Below are positions 15,722-22,252 of a DNA stretch of 25,543 nt, piece after piece. Under the pieces are notes generated by a model. The model was not told where the DNA came from. It worked only from the letters and a program-made list of their open reading frames with translations, and made no database searches. The stretch covers positions 1 through 25,543 of IMG/VR virus record IMGVR_UViG_3300043772_002356; one strand, 5' to 3'. The DNA comes from a virus. The position numbers were made by a program, and so were the translations under genes. Each line of letters begins with the position of its first letter. Position 1 is the first letter of the stretch.

Positions 15722-18700
15722 ATGGCAATCGAGATCGACTTTGGACGCGAGCTTGGCCGGCTGGCGTTTCCTGACGACGTTACTGACGAACAAGCTCAGT
15801 CTTACGTCCGCGAGAATTACCAAGCGATCCGACAAGGTTTGCTGGCGCAGCGTCAGCAGGAAATGGCCGATGAGACCTCTCAGCTGGAGGCGGCAAAATT
15901 CCGCGCTGGTGAGTACGGCACACTGGAGACCTTGGGCGGTCAAATCGCGGAGTTGCCAAAGGCTGCTTTAAGCGGTCTCGGCCAAGCGGCGAAAGGCTTC
16001 GCACGGGTCTTTGAGGCCGGCGATCCATTCACTGAATTAACCGTGCAAGAGCAGCGACAGATGGCTGCCCGAAGCCCGGTGACCGCAGCTGGCGAGAGTT
16101 TGATTTCAGCCGGCGAGGCAATGCCTTCGCTGCCCGGGGTTCAAGAAACCATTCCGGCTCAAATCTCTGGCGGCATCGGCAGTACGCTGTCCGTGCTTCC
16201 AGGTGCGTTGGTTGCTGGGCCTGTCGGCGCCGGCGCTCTCTACGGCTTCTCAGCAGGTGAAGCTGGAGCCGAAGATGCCCGTCGCGTAATCAACCGACGC
16301 ATTGCCGAGCGACTGGCTGCGGGTGACACGCAGGGCGCCAACGATCTTCAGGCCCAAGCATCGCAACTGGAATCCCAAGCATTCGCGCTGAATGCTCCTA
16401 TTGGTGCCGTTTCGGAAGGCACGTTAGGTCTTGCTGGCAAACTGCGATACGGACGCAAATCCATCGGCGGCGTTGGTGAGCGGCTTGCCGAGCGACTGGT
16501 TCCGAAGGCTGCTAGCGTCCGCACTCAGAACATGATCCGAGGCGGCATAGAAGGCGCTGTCACCGAGGGTCTTCAAGAATCTCTCGAGCAGACCATGGGC
16601 AACATGGCTGCCAAGGTCACATACGATCCCGAGCGCGGCATCATGGATGGTGTCGCTCAGGCTGGTTTCATCGGTGCTGCGACTGGTGGTTTGGTCGGTG
16701 GTATCGTTGGCTCCGAGCGGAATCCGAATCTCGCCACTGCAAATGCAGTCGCCGAAGCCACGGGCGCTGATCCTGCCAACCCGTTGCCCCGTTCTGCGGC
16801 CACCGTGTCCGGCATCGAGGATGGTGCTCAACCCACCGGCCCGATCGAAATCGAGCCCGAGATCACGGCAGAGGATGTCCTACGGATGTCCCAGGAGGCC
16901 GGGATTCCGATGCCGGAGGAGCAGGCACCCGCACCCGCGCCGGCACCGCAGGCTGTCGTGACTCCCGCGCCCGCCCAGGCCGCCCCGGAACCCGCGCCCG
17001 CCCCGGCACCCGCCCCCGCCCCCGCCGCACCCGTCGATACCGAAACCGGCCTGACTTCCGACGAGCAGGACGAACTCGACCAGTTGATCACGGCCGAGGA
17101 CGCCGGACTCCTGAGCGAGGAAGGTGCTATCACTCTCGCGGCCTATCGCGCCCGCTTGGGCACCGAGCCGGCTGCAATCCAAACCCAACCCACACCCAGT
17201 GCCGTTCAAGAACAAGTCCCAGATGAAGGCGTGCTACGCCGAGAAGAACCGCAACCCCCAGTCGAAGTGGGACTGCGACAAGTGGATCAAGGAGGGCGGC
17301 CTGCCGAAGTCGGAGGGGCCGAAGCCGAAGTCACCCCGGAAGAAGTACAGCAAGTAAAAGCGGAGGTGGTTCCGGCGCCTGCGCTTTCACCCGCTCCCAC
17401 TCCCGTCCCTGTCACCCCAGCTGCCCAATCCACAAAGCTCCCCAAGGATCTTGCTGGCGCCAAGCCGCGCTACAACGTCTCGATGGATGCGTATCTTCCG
17501 AGGTTTGACAGCGACTTCGATCTTGCTGCGTTCATCGTGACGCAAGCGAACCCGTCTAAGCGCGATGCAGACTACTTGAGCTGGGCAGTCGAGCGATCTG
17601 GAATGACTCCGGAGGAAGTCCGCAAACACGGTCTCAAGGTTCGCGCTGAACTCAAGAAGCTAGCATCCCAAACCAAGGGCGGAACTTCTCAGAAGCCGGC
17701 CACGTTGACCGTTCCGTCGGTATCAATTTCGATGCCGGAGGTGCAGGTTACGCCGACTCCGGCACCTGCGCCTGCGCCTACACCTGCACCGGCTCCAGCG
17801 CCCACCCCGGCAAAACCTACCCCAGCACCTCAAGCCGATCCCAACGAAAAGCTCGCCGCATTCATCGAAGATGTAGATGGCGCGATTACGAATCTCGAAT
17901 CGCCGGCCAAGCTGCGTGCGATGGTCAAGAAAGCCGTTGCTGCCGGTTACATCACAGCCAGAGATGCCGCTGAGATCGCCAGCGTTCAGAAGTCCATGGG
18001 AAGCGCCGAGGACACGACTGATGCCTTCGGTGAATTTGCTGGTTACCTGAGCATGGAGTTGGAGAAGCGGAGGAAGGTTCCCGCGCCGGCACCGGTTGCT
18101 GCACCTACGCCCGCTCCTGCACCTGCACCCGCTCCAGCTGCGCCCGCTCCTGCCAAGAAAGCCACCAAAGATCCCGCGACCATGACGGCCAGCGAGATCA
18201 ACAAAGAGTTGGATCGCTTGGACGCCGAAAGCTCTGCCATCACTGATGAGCTTATTGCAGTAGGTCGTGGGTCAGAGTTGACTTCGGAAACCCTCAAAGG
18301 AAGTGATCCAATTTCATTGAGGGCTCGCGCAAACTTTGATCGTCGATCAGACCTTCGTCGCGAGATTTCATCCCGGTATGGCCCGAACGCTCCGAGTCGT
18401 TTGCCGGCTGGTCAGAAAGGTTTTGGGCCAAGAAAGACGGCCGCCCAATCTGCCATCGACGCCATCGACAAAGTCAGCAAAGGCCTGTCGGAAAACCAAT
18501 ACTCAGACCCGCTGTTCCTAACGCCGCTGGCGAAGCTAGCACTGCAAATTGCCAAGGGTTTAATCCAAGCCGGCGTTGCGGTAGATCGGGCGATCCGTCA
18601 AGCGATCGCGCAGGCTAGACAGCAGTTTCCGAATGATCCTGCCAACGACACTCAGCTGGAAGATCGTCTGATTCGTGATGCTGAATACACAGCTGCTGTT

Positions 18701-21700
18701 GCCAGTGGCGACATGGCTAAGGCTCAGCGGATGGTTGATGAGGCTGCGGTCGCATCTGGTGCATACCGTGGAATCGGAAAGCGGCTGTCCGATTGGGCTA
18801 GGAATGATACCGACGAAGCCACTCGCCGGGTGCGATTCACGAATCCATCAACGGGAGAACAAGCGACCTTTGGAGATGTTATCTCCGATCTGCAATCAAT
18901 CTCGGATGAGGCTGCGCCAGAATACGTTCGATGGCTACAAAGCATTCCGAACAAATCTACTGCGACTGCTGACATTGTCTCCGACATTACCTGGATTTCC
19001 CGATTAGAGGCTGCGGAGACGCAGGATGATGCGGGGAATCTAATTCCGCCTTCACAGCGATTCCAATCAACGAAGGCCGTTCAACCCGACCGGGTCGAAG
19101 CCATCCTCAAGAAGGTAATCGCCGCTACCGATCCCCGTGGAAAGGCGTTCGAGGCCGTGGCTGCGTTGTCGAACTTCGTGGTTTTCCAAGCCTCGAAGAT
19201 CGCGCTGCGTATCTATCAGTCCACCAAGTCATGGGTCGCAGCACGCAATGCTGGCATGGACTACATCAAGTCCCACGTCCAGCTGAGCAATGAAGCGGAG
19301 ACTGCCGATAACTTCGAGGAGTACATCAAGGCTTTCCCGAACCAGGAGATTCCTGCTGGCACACCTGAGCGTCCGCAGCCGCCGAATCCCGCCGAGCGCG
19401 TCGAGTCGCGGGGCCTGTTCGTCGGCGACATCGAACGTGATACCGATGAGAACTGGGCATCCGAGGCGAGAAAGTGGGTCGATTTCTACAAAGGCAATTT
19501 GGAACGCGCCTTTCAGGTTGTCCTCACCGCAGACATTGATAACGCATTCAAGGAATACATTCTTGGGGAAATCATCCAACGCAACCAGTTGGACATCGCC
19601 CGAGGCAAGGGTGACGTCGAAACAATGCGAGCGTTAAACCTTGAGAAGCGACTGGCGGATTCAGCGAAATCGCTTGGTGCTGTTACCGCTAAGGCGATGG
19701 CAGCACGCAGGCTCGCCCAGGAACGTTTCTGGTGGGCTCAGCCGGCTATGATCCTTCGCAACCTGATTCGCAAACGTCAGGATGAGTTGATTCCGTTTGC
19801 CAAGATTGAGTCTGAGCAGGTGCGTAAATGGCTTACTGAATCAGGTCGCGAGGCTGTGAACCAGATTCGCGAGGCCATGAAGAAGGCGGATGCTGTGTTT
19901 GCCCGCGAGTTCCGCAAGATCAAACAGGTGCCCGGCGAGCCCGAAGGTCCTCCCATCGAGATCAAGTGGCAGGACATCCTTACTAAGGCTCTGGACACTC
20001 AAGGTTCAGTGCGGCAGAAGATGCTTCAGGTTATCCTGGCTGACCCGCGCCTGCGTAACCTAAGCCCTGCTGGCATTGCGGAGATCACTAACCTCCTGAC
20101 CAACGCTTGGGAAACGAAGCGGAATCAAATCTTCAGGGCTGAGTTCCAGAAGAAGGTGCCGCTGCCGAACGTCAAACCCGATGTTCGCGAGAAGCTCTTC
20201 CGCTCTCTACCTCGCATCCTGAAGTACGCCAACATTGCCAGGGCTACCCCGGGTAGTTTCTCGATTCAAGACGGCCCTGATACGTTCCTGCTGTGGAATC
20301 AGGCATTTCGAGACGCAGTGGCGCCGGAGTTTGGTGTCGCTGAGATCAACGGCGCCACGGCCCGTAAGATTACCGACCTAGCCCAGAAAGCGCAGGCTCA
20401 AAGCGGCGTCAATCGCAACGAGATCATCCAGCAGATGTTCCGCCTCATGGCCCGCGAAGGCGGTGTGCGGTTCTCTGATGCACTGCGTGATTACTGGTAC
20501 GCTGCCGTGCTATCAGGCGTTCGCACGCAGGTGGACAACGCGATGAACGTGTTCAACGGATTCCTTAACACAGCCATGTTTGCTGGCATGGCAAAGAAGG
20601 ATGCCGGCTTTGTAGCCTACTCCGCGCTCAAGGGTCTCGATGAAGGCATCCGCGACTTCTGGCCCATGCTCTGGCGTGGCGAGCTTTACCGCTCTGTCAA
20701 CTTCAACCCTGACCAGCCGGGAAGCGCACTTGAAGGACTAGGTCAGTCTCGCAATTTGTTTGCCAAGGGAATCAGTCAGTTCAAGTACGTTGGCCGACTC
20801 ATCAACGCGCTTGATCACATGACTGCGCTGATGTCTGACTCAACCGCCAAGGCATACGCGTTACGCAAGTTGTACGGCCCGGAGGTTGCGCGTCGGTATC
20901 TCACTCCGTCGAAGGAGGCGGTCGCTGCGGCGCGAGCGCGAGCCATCGCCGAAGGCACCCGCCCTGAACTCGTCAACAAGCGCACCCGCGAAATCATCCA
21001 AGAGAAACTGCCCGTCGAAATCTTGCTGACCGCGAAAGATATTCGCGAGATGACCACGTTTACTGAAACGCCTCAGGGAATCCTTGGGAGTTTGTACCGT
21101 GGTCTCGATCAAGCGGCTCAGGGCAAGACGCTTTACAAGGTCCTGTCGGGAACGAACTTCCTGCGGTTCGCAGCAAACTCTGCAAACGAAATTCTGAACT
21201 TCGCTTTCCCAGTTGCGTTTATTCGGTACTACCAATCCGCACCTGGAAGGTCAGAAGGCGAATACGGTCTGAAGTTTTCCGAGTCGCGCCGCGACCTTCT
21301 CTTAGCGAAGGCAGCATTTGGAACTGCGCTTGGCATCTATGCTGGTGCCTTGTTCCTCGGTGACGATGACAAGGAAGAGGATCGAAACATCGACATCACT
21401 GGGTCGTTTAAGTCTCTCGATCCGAACAAACGCAAGCAGCTGCTAGCAGAAGGCCGGCAGCCGTATTCCATTCGATTCGGCAATACCTACGTGTCCTACC
21501 GCCAGCTGGGATTCGGTGGTGTGCTTGCGACCATCGGTGAACTCCGCGATCGCCAGTTGTTTTCCCCGGATAAGTGGTCCGAGGAAAACATCATCGAAAA
21601 GATCCTGGATGGCGCCGCAGCTGGAATGTTTATCGTCAAGGACTCGACCGCGATCTCTGGTCTGACCGAGCTTCTGGGCTTTGCCAACGCCTACAAGTAC

Positions 21701-22252
21701 GACACCGACGAGTTCATCGAGAAGTCATTCCCGCGCTACGTTTCGCGCCTAGCAGGGTCTTTGGTTCCCAACATCTTGAAAGAAGTCGATGCGTGGTCTG
21801 ATCCGTCGATCTTTAAGACTGAGGCTGGCAACTTCGGATACGAATACTTCCTTCAGCAGGTGCCGTTCGGCCGTCGCGACATCGGGCCGGGTCCGATCCT
21901 TAACGTGCTGGGTGAGCCGGTTAAGGTTGAGCGGTATCCGTGGAGTCGATGGGCCAAGGAACGGGAAGAGGATCCCGCCTGGACCACTCTTGGTAAACTC
22001 GCCAGCCGGGGCGTGTTCATGCCGACGCCTGCCATCACCGTGAAGGTCAACGAGAACGGCACTCGCCGCGAGATGACCCGCGAAGAGAAATACGCGTACC
22101 AACGGGCCGTTGGTCAGGGTTATCGCAAGTTCATCGAGCAGAATTCCAAGCGTCTGCTGGCACTCCCGCCTGCCGAAGCAGCGGACTTCATCGACAAGAA
22201 CGCAGACCGCATTCGCCGAAATGCCAGAACAAATCTGAAAAATTCGTTCTGA
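15722..22252 (+). CDS. Giant internal virion / ejection protein (large polyvalent-type)
   Basis: This encodes 2176 residues. Order: an N-terminal helical domain (1-60); hydrophobic Gly/Ala segments at about 148-180 and 312-330; then Pro/Ala linkers at 401-438, 677-704 and 787-811 separating small domains (about 570-655 and 705-786). A long helical region (about 830-1550) follows, then a region around 1590-1640 with a AVLSGVRTQVDNAMNVFNGF segment like that in large polyvalent and internal phage proteins, and a hydrophobic helix near 1858-1878 followed by DDDKEED. It is probably ejected into the host and helps DNA cross the envelope. No lytic transglycosylase or protease motif was recognised. 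The gene starts 6 bases after the previous stop, without SD, and contains an out-of-frame small gene at 17199-17357. Confidence 0.7.
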   Translation: MAIEIDFGRELGRLAFPDDVTDEQAQSYVRENYQAIRQGLLAQRQQEMADETSQLEAAKFRAGEYGTLETLGGQIAELPKAALSGLGQAAKGFARVFEAGDPFTELTVQEQRQMAARSPVTAAGESLISAGEAMPSLPGVQETIPAQISGGIGSTLSVLPGALVAGPVGAGALYGFSAGEAGAEDARRVINRRIAERLAAGDTQGANDLQAQASQLESQAFALNAPIGAVSEGTLGLAGKLRYGRKSIGGVGERLAERLVPKAASVRTQNMIRGGIEGAVTEGLQESLEQTMGNMAAKVTYDPERGIMDGVAQAGFIGAATGGLVGGIVGSERNPNLATANAVAEATGADPANPLPRSAATVSGIEDGAQPTGPIEIEPEITAEDVLRMSQEAGIPMPEEQAPAPAPAPQAVVTPAPAQAAPEPAPAPAPAPAPAAPVDTETGLTSDEQDELDQLITAEDAGLLSEEGAITLAAYRARLGTEPAAIQTQPTPSAVQEQVPDEGVLRREEPQPPVEVGLRQVDQGGRPAEVGGAEAEVTPEEVQQVKAEVVPAPALSPAPTPVPVTPAAQSTKLPKDLAGAKPRYNVSMDAYLPRFDSDFDLAAFIVTQANPSKRDADYLSWAVERSGMTPEEVRKHGLKVRAELKKLASQTKGGTSQKPATLTVPSVSISMPEVQVTPTPAPAPAPTPAPAPAPTPAKPTPAPQADPNEKLAAFIEDVDGAITNLESPAKLRAMVKKAVAAGYITARDAAEIASVQKSMGSAEDTTDAFGEFAGYLSMELEKRRKVPAPAPVAAPTPAPAPAPAPAAPAPAKKATKDPATMTASEINKELDRLDAESSAITDELIAVGRGSELTSETLKGSDPISLRARANFDRRSDLRREISSRYGPNAPSRLPAGQKGFGPRKTAAQSAIDAIDKVSKGLSENQYSDPLFLTPLAKLALQIAKGLIQAGVAVDRAIRQAIAQARQQFPNDPANDTQLEDRLIRDAEYTAAVASGDMAKAQRMVDEAAVASGAYRGIGKRLSDWARNDTDEATRRVRFTNPSTGEQATFGDVISDLQSISDEAAPEYVRWLQSIPNKSTATADIVSDITWISRLEAAETQDDAGNLIPPSQRFQSTKAVQPDRVEAILKKVIAATDPRGKAFEAVAALSNFVVFQASKIALRIYQSTKSWVAARNAGMDYIKSHVQLSNEAETADNFEEYIKAFPNQEIPAGTPERPQPPNPAERVESRGLFVGDIERDTDENWASEARKWVDFYKGNLERAFQVVLTADIDNAFKEYILGEIIQRNQLDIARGKGDVETMRALNLEKRLADSAKSLGAVTAKAMAARRLAQERFWWAQPAMILRNLIRKRQDELIPFAKIESEQVRKWLTESGREAVNQIREAMKKADAVFAREFRKIKQVPGEPEGPPIEIKWQDILTKALDTQGSVRQKMLQVILADPRLRNLSPAGIAEITNLLTNAWETKRNQIFRAEFQKKVPLPNVKPDVREKLFRSLPRILKYANIARATPGSFSIQDGPDTFLLWNQAFRDAVAPEFGVAEINGATARKITDLAQKAQAQSGVNRNEIIQQMFRLMAREGGVRFSDALRDYWYAAVLSGVRTQVDNAMNVFNGFLNTAMFAGMAKKDAGFVAYSALKGLDEGIRDFWPMLWRGELYRSVNFNPDQPGSALEGLGQSRNLFAKGISQFKYVGRLINALDHMTALMSDSTAKAYALRKLYGPEVARRYLTPSKEAVAAARARAIAEGTRPELVNKRTREIIQEKLPVEILLTAKDIREMTTFTETPQGILGSLYRGLDQAAQGKTLYKVLSGTNFLRFAANSANEILNFAFPVAFIRYYQSAPGRSEGEYGLKFSESRRDLLLAKAAFGTALGIYAGALFLGDDDKEEDRNIDITGSFKSLDPNKRKQLLAEGRQPYSIRFGNTYVSYRQLGFGGVLATIGELRDRQLFSPDKWSEENIIEKILDGAAAGMFIVKDSTAISGLTELLGFANAYKYDTDEFIEKSFPRYVSRLAGSLVPNILKEVDAWSDPSIFKTEAGNFGYEYFLQQVPFGRRDIGPGPILNVLGEPVKVERYPWSRWAKEREEDPAWTTLGKLASRGVFMPTPAITVKVNENGTRREMTREEKYAYQRAVGQGYRKFIEQNSKRLLALPPAEAADFIDKNADRIRRNARTNLKNSF
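16922..17035 (+). repeat. Pro/Ala linker 1 in the giant protein
   Basis: About 38 residues of mostly alternating Pro-Ala dipeptides encoded by GC-rich, degenerate codons. It separates the N-terminal membrane-active part from the next small domain. It is probably a stiff, extended linker. Confidence 0.85.
17199..17357 (+). CDS. Nested out-of-frame small gene (Lys/Cys/Trp-rich, 52 codons)
   Basis: In the +1 frame relative to the giant protein, a GTG at 17199 opens 52 codons ending in TAA. The product reads PFKNKSQMKACYAEKNRN at residues 2-19, then SKWDCDKW (22-29), with a Lys/Pro-rich basic tail. Of its 52 codons, 51 end in G or C; just upstream of the GTG in the same frame A-ending codons appear, so the bias begins at the start codon. 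The pattern F-K-x-x-[AS]-Q-x-x-x-C-Y-A...W-D-C-x-x-W recalls short phage proteins from memory. The giant-protein frame here reads a featureless E/V/P/Q-rich linker. No SD precedes it. It may be an expressed nested gene, or a captured gene now read out of frame; expression is unproven. Confidence 0.45.
   Translation: MPFKNKSQMKACYAEKNRNPQSKWDCDKWIKEGGLPKSEGPKPKSPRKKYSK
17750..17833 (+). repeat. Pro/Ala linker 2 in the giant protein
   Basis: 28 residues of Pro-Ala/Pro-Thr dipeptides between two small helical domains. Codon-level sequence differs from linker 1, so it is not a recent nucleotide duplication. Confidence 0.8.
18080..18154 (+). repeat. Pro/Ala linker 3 in the giant protein
   Basis: 25 residues of Pro-Ala dipeptides separating the domain at about residues 705-786 from the long helical region. 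Confidence 0.8.

Follow-up and report, generated by a model that had tools for sequence, protein, structure and literature searches.

Complete genes that lie within another gene, in a different reading frame, and are separately translated are exemplified by Rz1 within Rz of phage lambda and by E within D of phiX174, pairs in which the inner gene is tied to a single host gene. On the usual view, overlapping genes originate when one fixed host gene is overprinted. The nearest precedent for the nested module described here is the ShiLan domain: as described (PMC11855218), it resembles the nested family in being an out-of-frame ORF within an insertion that leaves a phage gene in frame and free of stops, and the two also share a GTG start and a patchy occurrence in close relatives.

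The window analyzed here is the whole of the IMG/VR virus record IMGVR_UViG_3300043772_002356 (25,543 bases). Its plus strand carries a giant virion-type ORF of 2176 codons (positions 15722-22252), recognized from the ORF list, from homologues of its C-terminal part and from a single weak match of residues 1892-1955 to phrog_6651 (internal virion protein, E 5.1e-05); the putative label "ejection protein" given to this ORF rests on that match. The window also contains a minus-strand large terminase match and tail-fibre matches, and matches to RecT and exonuclease VIII lie downstream of the giant gene. In the +1 frame relative to the giant ORF, on the same strand, a small ORF runs from a GTG at 17199 to a TAA at 17355-17357 (52 sense codons) and encodes a peptide of net charge +10; read in the host frame, the same DNA (17198-17356, residues 493-545, hereafter the module) specifies an acidic linker rich in E, V, P, Q and G (SAVQEQVPDEGVLRREEPQ...). 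The nested frame is open for 28 codons upstream of the GTG (plus strand, 17115-17198), a segment with no similarity to the family and no Shine-Dalgarno sequence before the GTG. Downstream (17357-17442, plus strand) the host frame continues as a P/A/V-rich linker, and relatives lacking the module have a P/A/V/T linker alone at this place. The conserved C-terminal part of the giant (19178-22240, plus strand) served as the query for homologues with and without the module. Further P/A-rich repeats of the giant ORF, at 17740-17850 and about 18100-18200, form low-complexity linkers resembling that of the module.

An earlier note on this DNA had singled out the small ORF as a complete gene, buried out of frame, in which 51 of 52 codons end in G or C. 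This holds: the sole exception is TCA, and no other of the 2125 same-frame 52-codon windows of the giant ORF reaches 51 such codons (mean 33.7). The 28 same-frame codons directly upstream include nine that end in A or T, and GC3 across the 11 large ORFs in the window ranges from 0.52 to 0.79. The excess is partly forced, because a T at a peptide wobble position creates a host-frame stop whenever the next codon starts with AA, AG or GA. Openness and length by themselves are uninformative, since codon-order shuffles of the host ORF gave an 80-codon open stretch in the nested frame in 500 of 500 cases; it is conservation that points to a gene.

A peptide scan of IMG/VR yielded 34 relatives, and a profile scan at least 241 confirmed members among at least 600 candidate stretches, of which the best 80 were retained; together with the window and two named records (MW202828 and MT497078) these make up 117 peptide-selected loci. 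At 115 of them (window included) a longer ORF encloses the peptide, and the relative frame never varies; the two exceptions are L084, which is cut off by a contig end, and L102, whose host frame has a stop within the module. Start codons are ATG in 99 loci and GTG in 18, with every GTG belonging to the clade of the window. Two loci have one of their frames interrupted: at L102:4577-4699 the host frame is stopped and the peptide intact, and at L003:10001-10156 the peptide is stopped internally while its host frame stays open, either of which could reflect mutation or sequencing error. Among genome contigs, 6 of 12 gave nested copies, again in the same frame, with MAG bins labelled Quisquiliibacterium, Flavobacteriaceae, Aureispira, Sulfuritalea, Sphingomonadaceae and Bacteroidetes. 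One of these, L324, is a 3.5 kb contig from a MAG labelled Quisquiliibacterium (a betaproteobacterium) that carries a window-like giant ORF with the nested peptide; its host or its binning is doubtful, because the window clade seldom uses Shine-Dalgarno signals. A plasmid collection searched with one nested peptide gave no match. Searches of PHROGs, Pfam and NCBIfam with the peptide of the window and those of six nested relatives returned no usable match (0 PHROG families at E 1 for the window peptide), and a DUF1391 assignment for the L023 peptide was rejected as sub-threshold (16.3 bits against a cut-off of 27.3).

The genes that harbor the module are of two kinds: giant ORFs, several of which have no detectable similarity to one another outside the module, and a protein of about 390-440 residues, which in L042 is encoded between portal-like and capsid-like ORFs, the position of a scaffolding protein (a neighborhood assigned by gene order and sequence, without a PHROG match). 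When the L042 host protein is compared with giants by BLASTP, the module region aligns and little else, such that the host-frame segment, too, has a homologous counterpart in unrelated hosts. Five scaffold/giant pairs share 77-83% DNA identity within the module, as against 33-40% in the 60 bases before it and 32-40% in the 60 bases after it, and the giant/giant pair L035/L038 shows 48% before, 77% within and 27% after. Similarity between unrelated hosts begins at the start codon or one base earlier, and the unrelated flanks in different hosts mark the module as a discrete block.

Selection on the two frames was assessed from differences at the three codon positions of the host frame. In the window clade (15 distinct sequences, with the truncated-host loci L011, L016, L018 and L019 left out), the module shows 0.196, 0.121 and 0.088 differences per site at the first, second and third host position, versus 0.307, 0.245 and 0.518 in the rest of the ORF, and none of 298 other windows has a third-position difference as low as that of the module. 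The corresponding values for 66 scaffold-type sequences are 0.359, 0.221 and 0.240 in the module versus 0.282, 0.195 and 0.483 elsewhere, with 0 of 53 windows reaching so low a third position. A drop at the host third position combined with variation at host position 1 is as expected of a gene that has its wobble at the first host position. The host frame leaves a mark of its own: of the 1055 peptide wobbles in 98 distinct peptide-selected modules at which a T would stop it, 1 has a T, compared to 371 of 995 in 71 free-standing relatives (those above 100 aa being left out both here and from the tree described below), and T occupies 250 of 1319 other peptide wobbles in the same 98 modules. The count of 1/1055 is not circular, because these loci were chosen by their peptide only; that of 0/172 for a second nested set, the SEAQ-type copies, is circular, as those were selected by an open host frame. 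In free-standing genes, the frame used for nesting averages 5.4 stops and is open in 0 of 80, and the other same-strand frame averages 1.5, such that the choice of frame is not accounted for by ease of opening alone. Silent changes can clear all stops from the used frame for 192 of 192 peptides and from one antisense frame for all peptides; the other same-strand frame can be cleared for 18 of 87 window-type and 69 of 90 free-standing peptides: the used frame is thus permissive, but not uniquely so. These patterns indicate that purifying selection acts on the nested frame and that the host frame is also kept coding within the module (L102 being the exception), and with both codon positions and host-stop avoidance showing constraint, the nested dual-coding gene that had been put forward for this locus is borne out.

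Relatives of the nested peptide also occur as genes of their own. A scan with the pattern MPFKxEAQ returned at least 120 stretches, of which 119 matches were classified; among the matches listed, 104 are free-standing, 10 are nested in the usual frame (in host ORFs of 776-3275 codons), two are nested in the other frame and three are partial. The two in the other frame, SEAQ-type ORFs inside short ORFs of L142 and L187 (130 and 100 codons), are probably due to chance and were set aside. L326 is free-standing and of the C...DC type of the window. An hhalign comparison of the nested profile A1 with the free-standing profile A7 aligned A1 over its length (probability 95.5, E 1.5e-08), and the nested, scaffold-hosted profile A8 matched A7 at probability 99.6 and E 1.3e-24, scores that are inflated in that both sets were partly found by their MPFK start. 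The N-terminal MPFKSxxQ block, which reads MPFKNKSQ in the window, has invariant M-P-F and Q8 in the 49-row alignment A5. Matches to phrog_1375 come only from free-standing members (best E 4e-05), and nested members of the C...W[DN]C type have no match in PHROG, Pfam or NCBIfam; we therefore call the window peptide a relative, rather than a member, of phrog_1375. The family resemblance put forward in the earlier note is thus confirmed by peptide and profile searches and by the profile matches to small phage genes that stand free. A free-standing relative away from the portal context is gp48 of the Streptomyces phage FlowerPower (L238:9001-9219), annotated as hypothetical and situated between annotated peptidase and holin genes. 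In L121, L150, L151, L153, L154 and L193, the block MPFKSEAQRR forms the N-terminus of proteins of 239-926 residues, indicating that the family exists also as a fused domain.

In a tree of 211 peptides, labels change 17 times, compared to 88.5 in shuffles, and its starred branches require only two changes to giant hosts, two to scaffold hosts and one to free-standing genes; the tree rests on 48 columns, and 126 of its 208 inner branches are open. A single opened cassette, passed on by common descent and then relocated, and separate nestings would account for these data equally well.

Scans based on the host protein do not select for the peptide (at least seven contigs in the scaffold scan and 7 of the 11 carriers in the giant scan had already been seen). 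Of 80 scaffold-type homologues, 68 carry the family peptide as a nested ORF, 53 recognized by pattern and 15 by eye (with MPFQ, MPIK, MPFV or MPFL starts), and 12 are without it; two of these 12, L254 and L255, have an ORF starting MLSK[RK]KNQ at the expected place, possibly a diverged or decaying copy. Among giant homologues, 11 of 16 contain the nested peptide and 5 of 16 lack it in the same linker. L349, for example, reads GYRARLGG..., then the module, then KARVAPAPVVEVTTSTKLPKN, and L337 reads DYRARLGG, a P/A/V/T linker, then TTSTKLPKN; this empty site indicates that the giant exists without the module, but it is not a clean excision, as the surrounding linker also differs. MT497078, one of the Flavobacterium elemo phage records, has its single copy in the giant gene and a 35%-identical scaffold-type protein without a nested ORF. 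A first set of 39 records had one copy in 27 and none in 12, and a second set of 34 had one in 29 and none in five; all 56 copy-bearing records (56/56, mostly fragments) had exactly one. In 17 records picked for a module-less host gene, most of them fragments, no copy was found elsewhere. The module is thus dispensable for some phages. An alternative raised at the outset, that a foreign gene was set into a tolerant linker, is borne out as regards a discrete block with unrelated flanks that some giants lack; the gene may be foreign or native to the phage. The proposed comparison of relatives for homologues, presence or absence, and constraint per frame thus returned homologues in many other genomes, sites with and without the module, and constraint on the nested as well as on the giant frame.

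Among nested SEAQ-type copies, a Shine-Dalgarno match of at least 5 nt precedes 9 of 10 starts, compared to 859 of 19556 same-frame positions (4.4%) in the same ORFs. No such match occurs at any of the 117 window-type loci, six of which have one of 4 nt; the window clade and its relatives seldom use this signal (24/174, 4/46 and 34/382 genes; 2/11 in the window). We infer that initiation in the window type is likewise independent, at the nested start, and that the peptide is produced. The peptides have a mean net charge of +10.9 (n=127), versus -8.5 for the same DNA in the host frame (n=117). AlphaFold2 (49 rows) predicts helices at residues 6-18 and 26-33 and a low-confidence tail (pLDDT 76.7, pTM 0.46). 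A profile search of the PDB gave one chance-level match (E 1.4) and a Foldseek search of the PDB with the predicted model four matches, the best at E 5.5, and no fold was assigned on this basis. Upstream neighbors of 62 free-standing copies include 10 portals (by family match or cluster), two large terminases and three giant ORFs (1-10 bases upstream), making 15 of 62, with the two next-largest clusters (12 and 9 members) consisting of unassigned proteins; the ten neighbor proteins for one family test were hand-chosen. Such neighbors make involvement in assembling the head, packaging DNA or ejecting it the likeliest function, though tentatively and with the odds somewhat against it. The T7 proteins gp6.7 and gp7.3 are small podophage virion proteins involved in core/nozzle assembly and ejection (PMC11784390); they offer a possible functional analogy only.

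Several other explanations could produce some of these features. If the nested ORF were a product of chance, with the giant alone translated and the apparent conservation due to the host linker, then long open stretches should be common in this frame of a GC-rich giant ORF, as they are, and the host frame should be conserved in the module, as it also is. However, the codon-position pattern is reversed within the module, the same peptide recurs in unrelated hosts and as free-standing genes with starts and stops retained, and the cassette edges and profile match to free-standing genes contradict this explanation, to which we give next to no credence. Equally hard to credit is a conserved signal at the nucleotide level (an RNA structure, or a packaging or recoding site): the block is indeed better conserved than its flanks, but differences cluster at the peptide wobble (0.196 and 0.359 in the two host types), and the unit held in common with free-standing genes is the peptide.

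It is very improbable that a frameshift truncates the host protein and adds the peptide at its end. In favor of this, the nested frame of the window clade is open upstream of the start for a median of 30 codons, but a same-frame stop lies within seven codons upstream in 11/15, 61/81, 39/53 and 3/10 loci of the other groups, similarity starts at the start codon, which is ATG or GTG in 117 of 117 peptide-selected loci, and the Shine-Dalgarno matches at SEAQ-type starts are at odds with it. A selfish cassette would account for the patchiness in close relatives, the shifts between host genes and the stop-free host frame, but it would be one of only 52 residues, without a nuclease family in Pfam, PHROGs or NCBIfam, never present twice in a record, confined to a single place in the 68 carrying scaffold-type homologues and related to free-standing genes, and we regard it as improbable.

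We favor, with a probability of roughly nine in ten, the reading that the nested ORF is a real, selected and independently initiated gene. It would encode, in the +1 frame of the giant gene, a small basic phage protein that is predicted to form two helices, ends in a lysine-rich tail and belongs to a wider family of phage proteins of 40-70 residues that are usually free-standing. Its translation most likely begins at a start codon of its own (GTG in the window, ATG in most relatives). Read in its own frame, the cassette would give the basic protein, and in the stop-free host frame an acidic, probably disordered linker, which would allow it to sit in the linkers of unrelated proteins. The cassette seems to have moved between host genes (the giant ORF and the scaffold-position protein) and to have been gained or lost in close relatives. 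With less assurance, though still as the better-favored view, we propose that the family has two states, free-standing or a buried dual-coding cassette, and that the buried one changes host gene while keeping one register.

The open-licence literature yielded no description of the nested family (most subscription papers lay outside the search). Annotations of the carriers MW202828 and MT497078 give the host gene only, and the profile libraries searched have no model for the nested type, leaving its abundance and role uncounted. If our reading is true, gene finders that forbid full overlap miss such a buried cassette, and the host-frame segment that unrelated giant phage proteins have conserved would be the shadow of the nested gene. 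Flavobacterium elemo phages, with BAL314 as host, are cultured carriers, so that translation and function are directly testable.

The nested gene is widespread; it is new as a relocating overlapping gene and is otherwise an ordinary overlapping phage gene. As opposed to one fixed host gene being overprinted, other genes seem to carry within them a gene family that existed beforehand and that moves among them, with both frames under selection: unlike Rz1 in Rz and E in D, its members occupy several unrelated host genes and also stand free. ShiLan is a 195-residue HNH nuclease (PMC11855218), whereas the nested family consists of basic proteins of 37-68 residues without a nuclease motif and, unlike ShiLan, resides in virion-type hosts that are unrelated to one another and includes many members that stand free.
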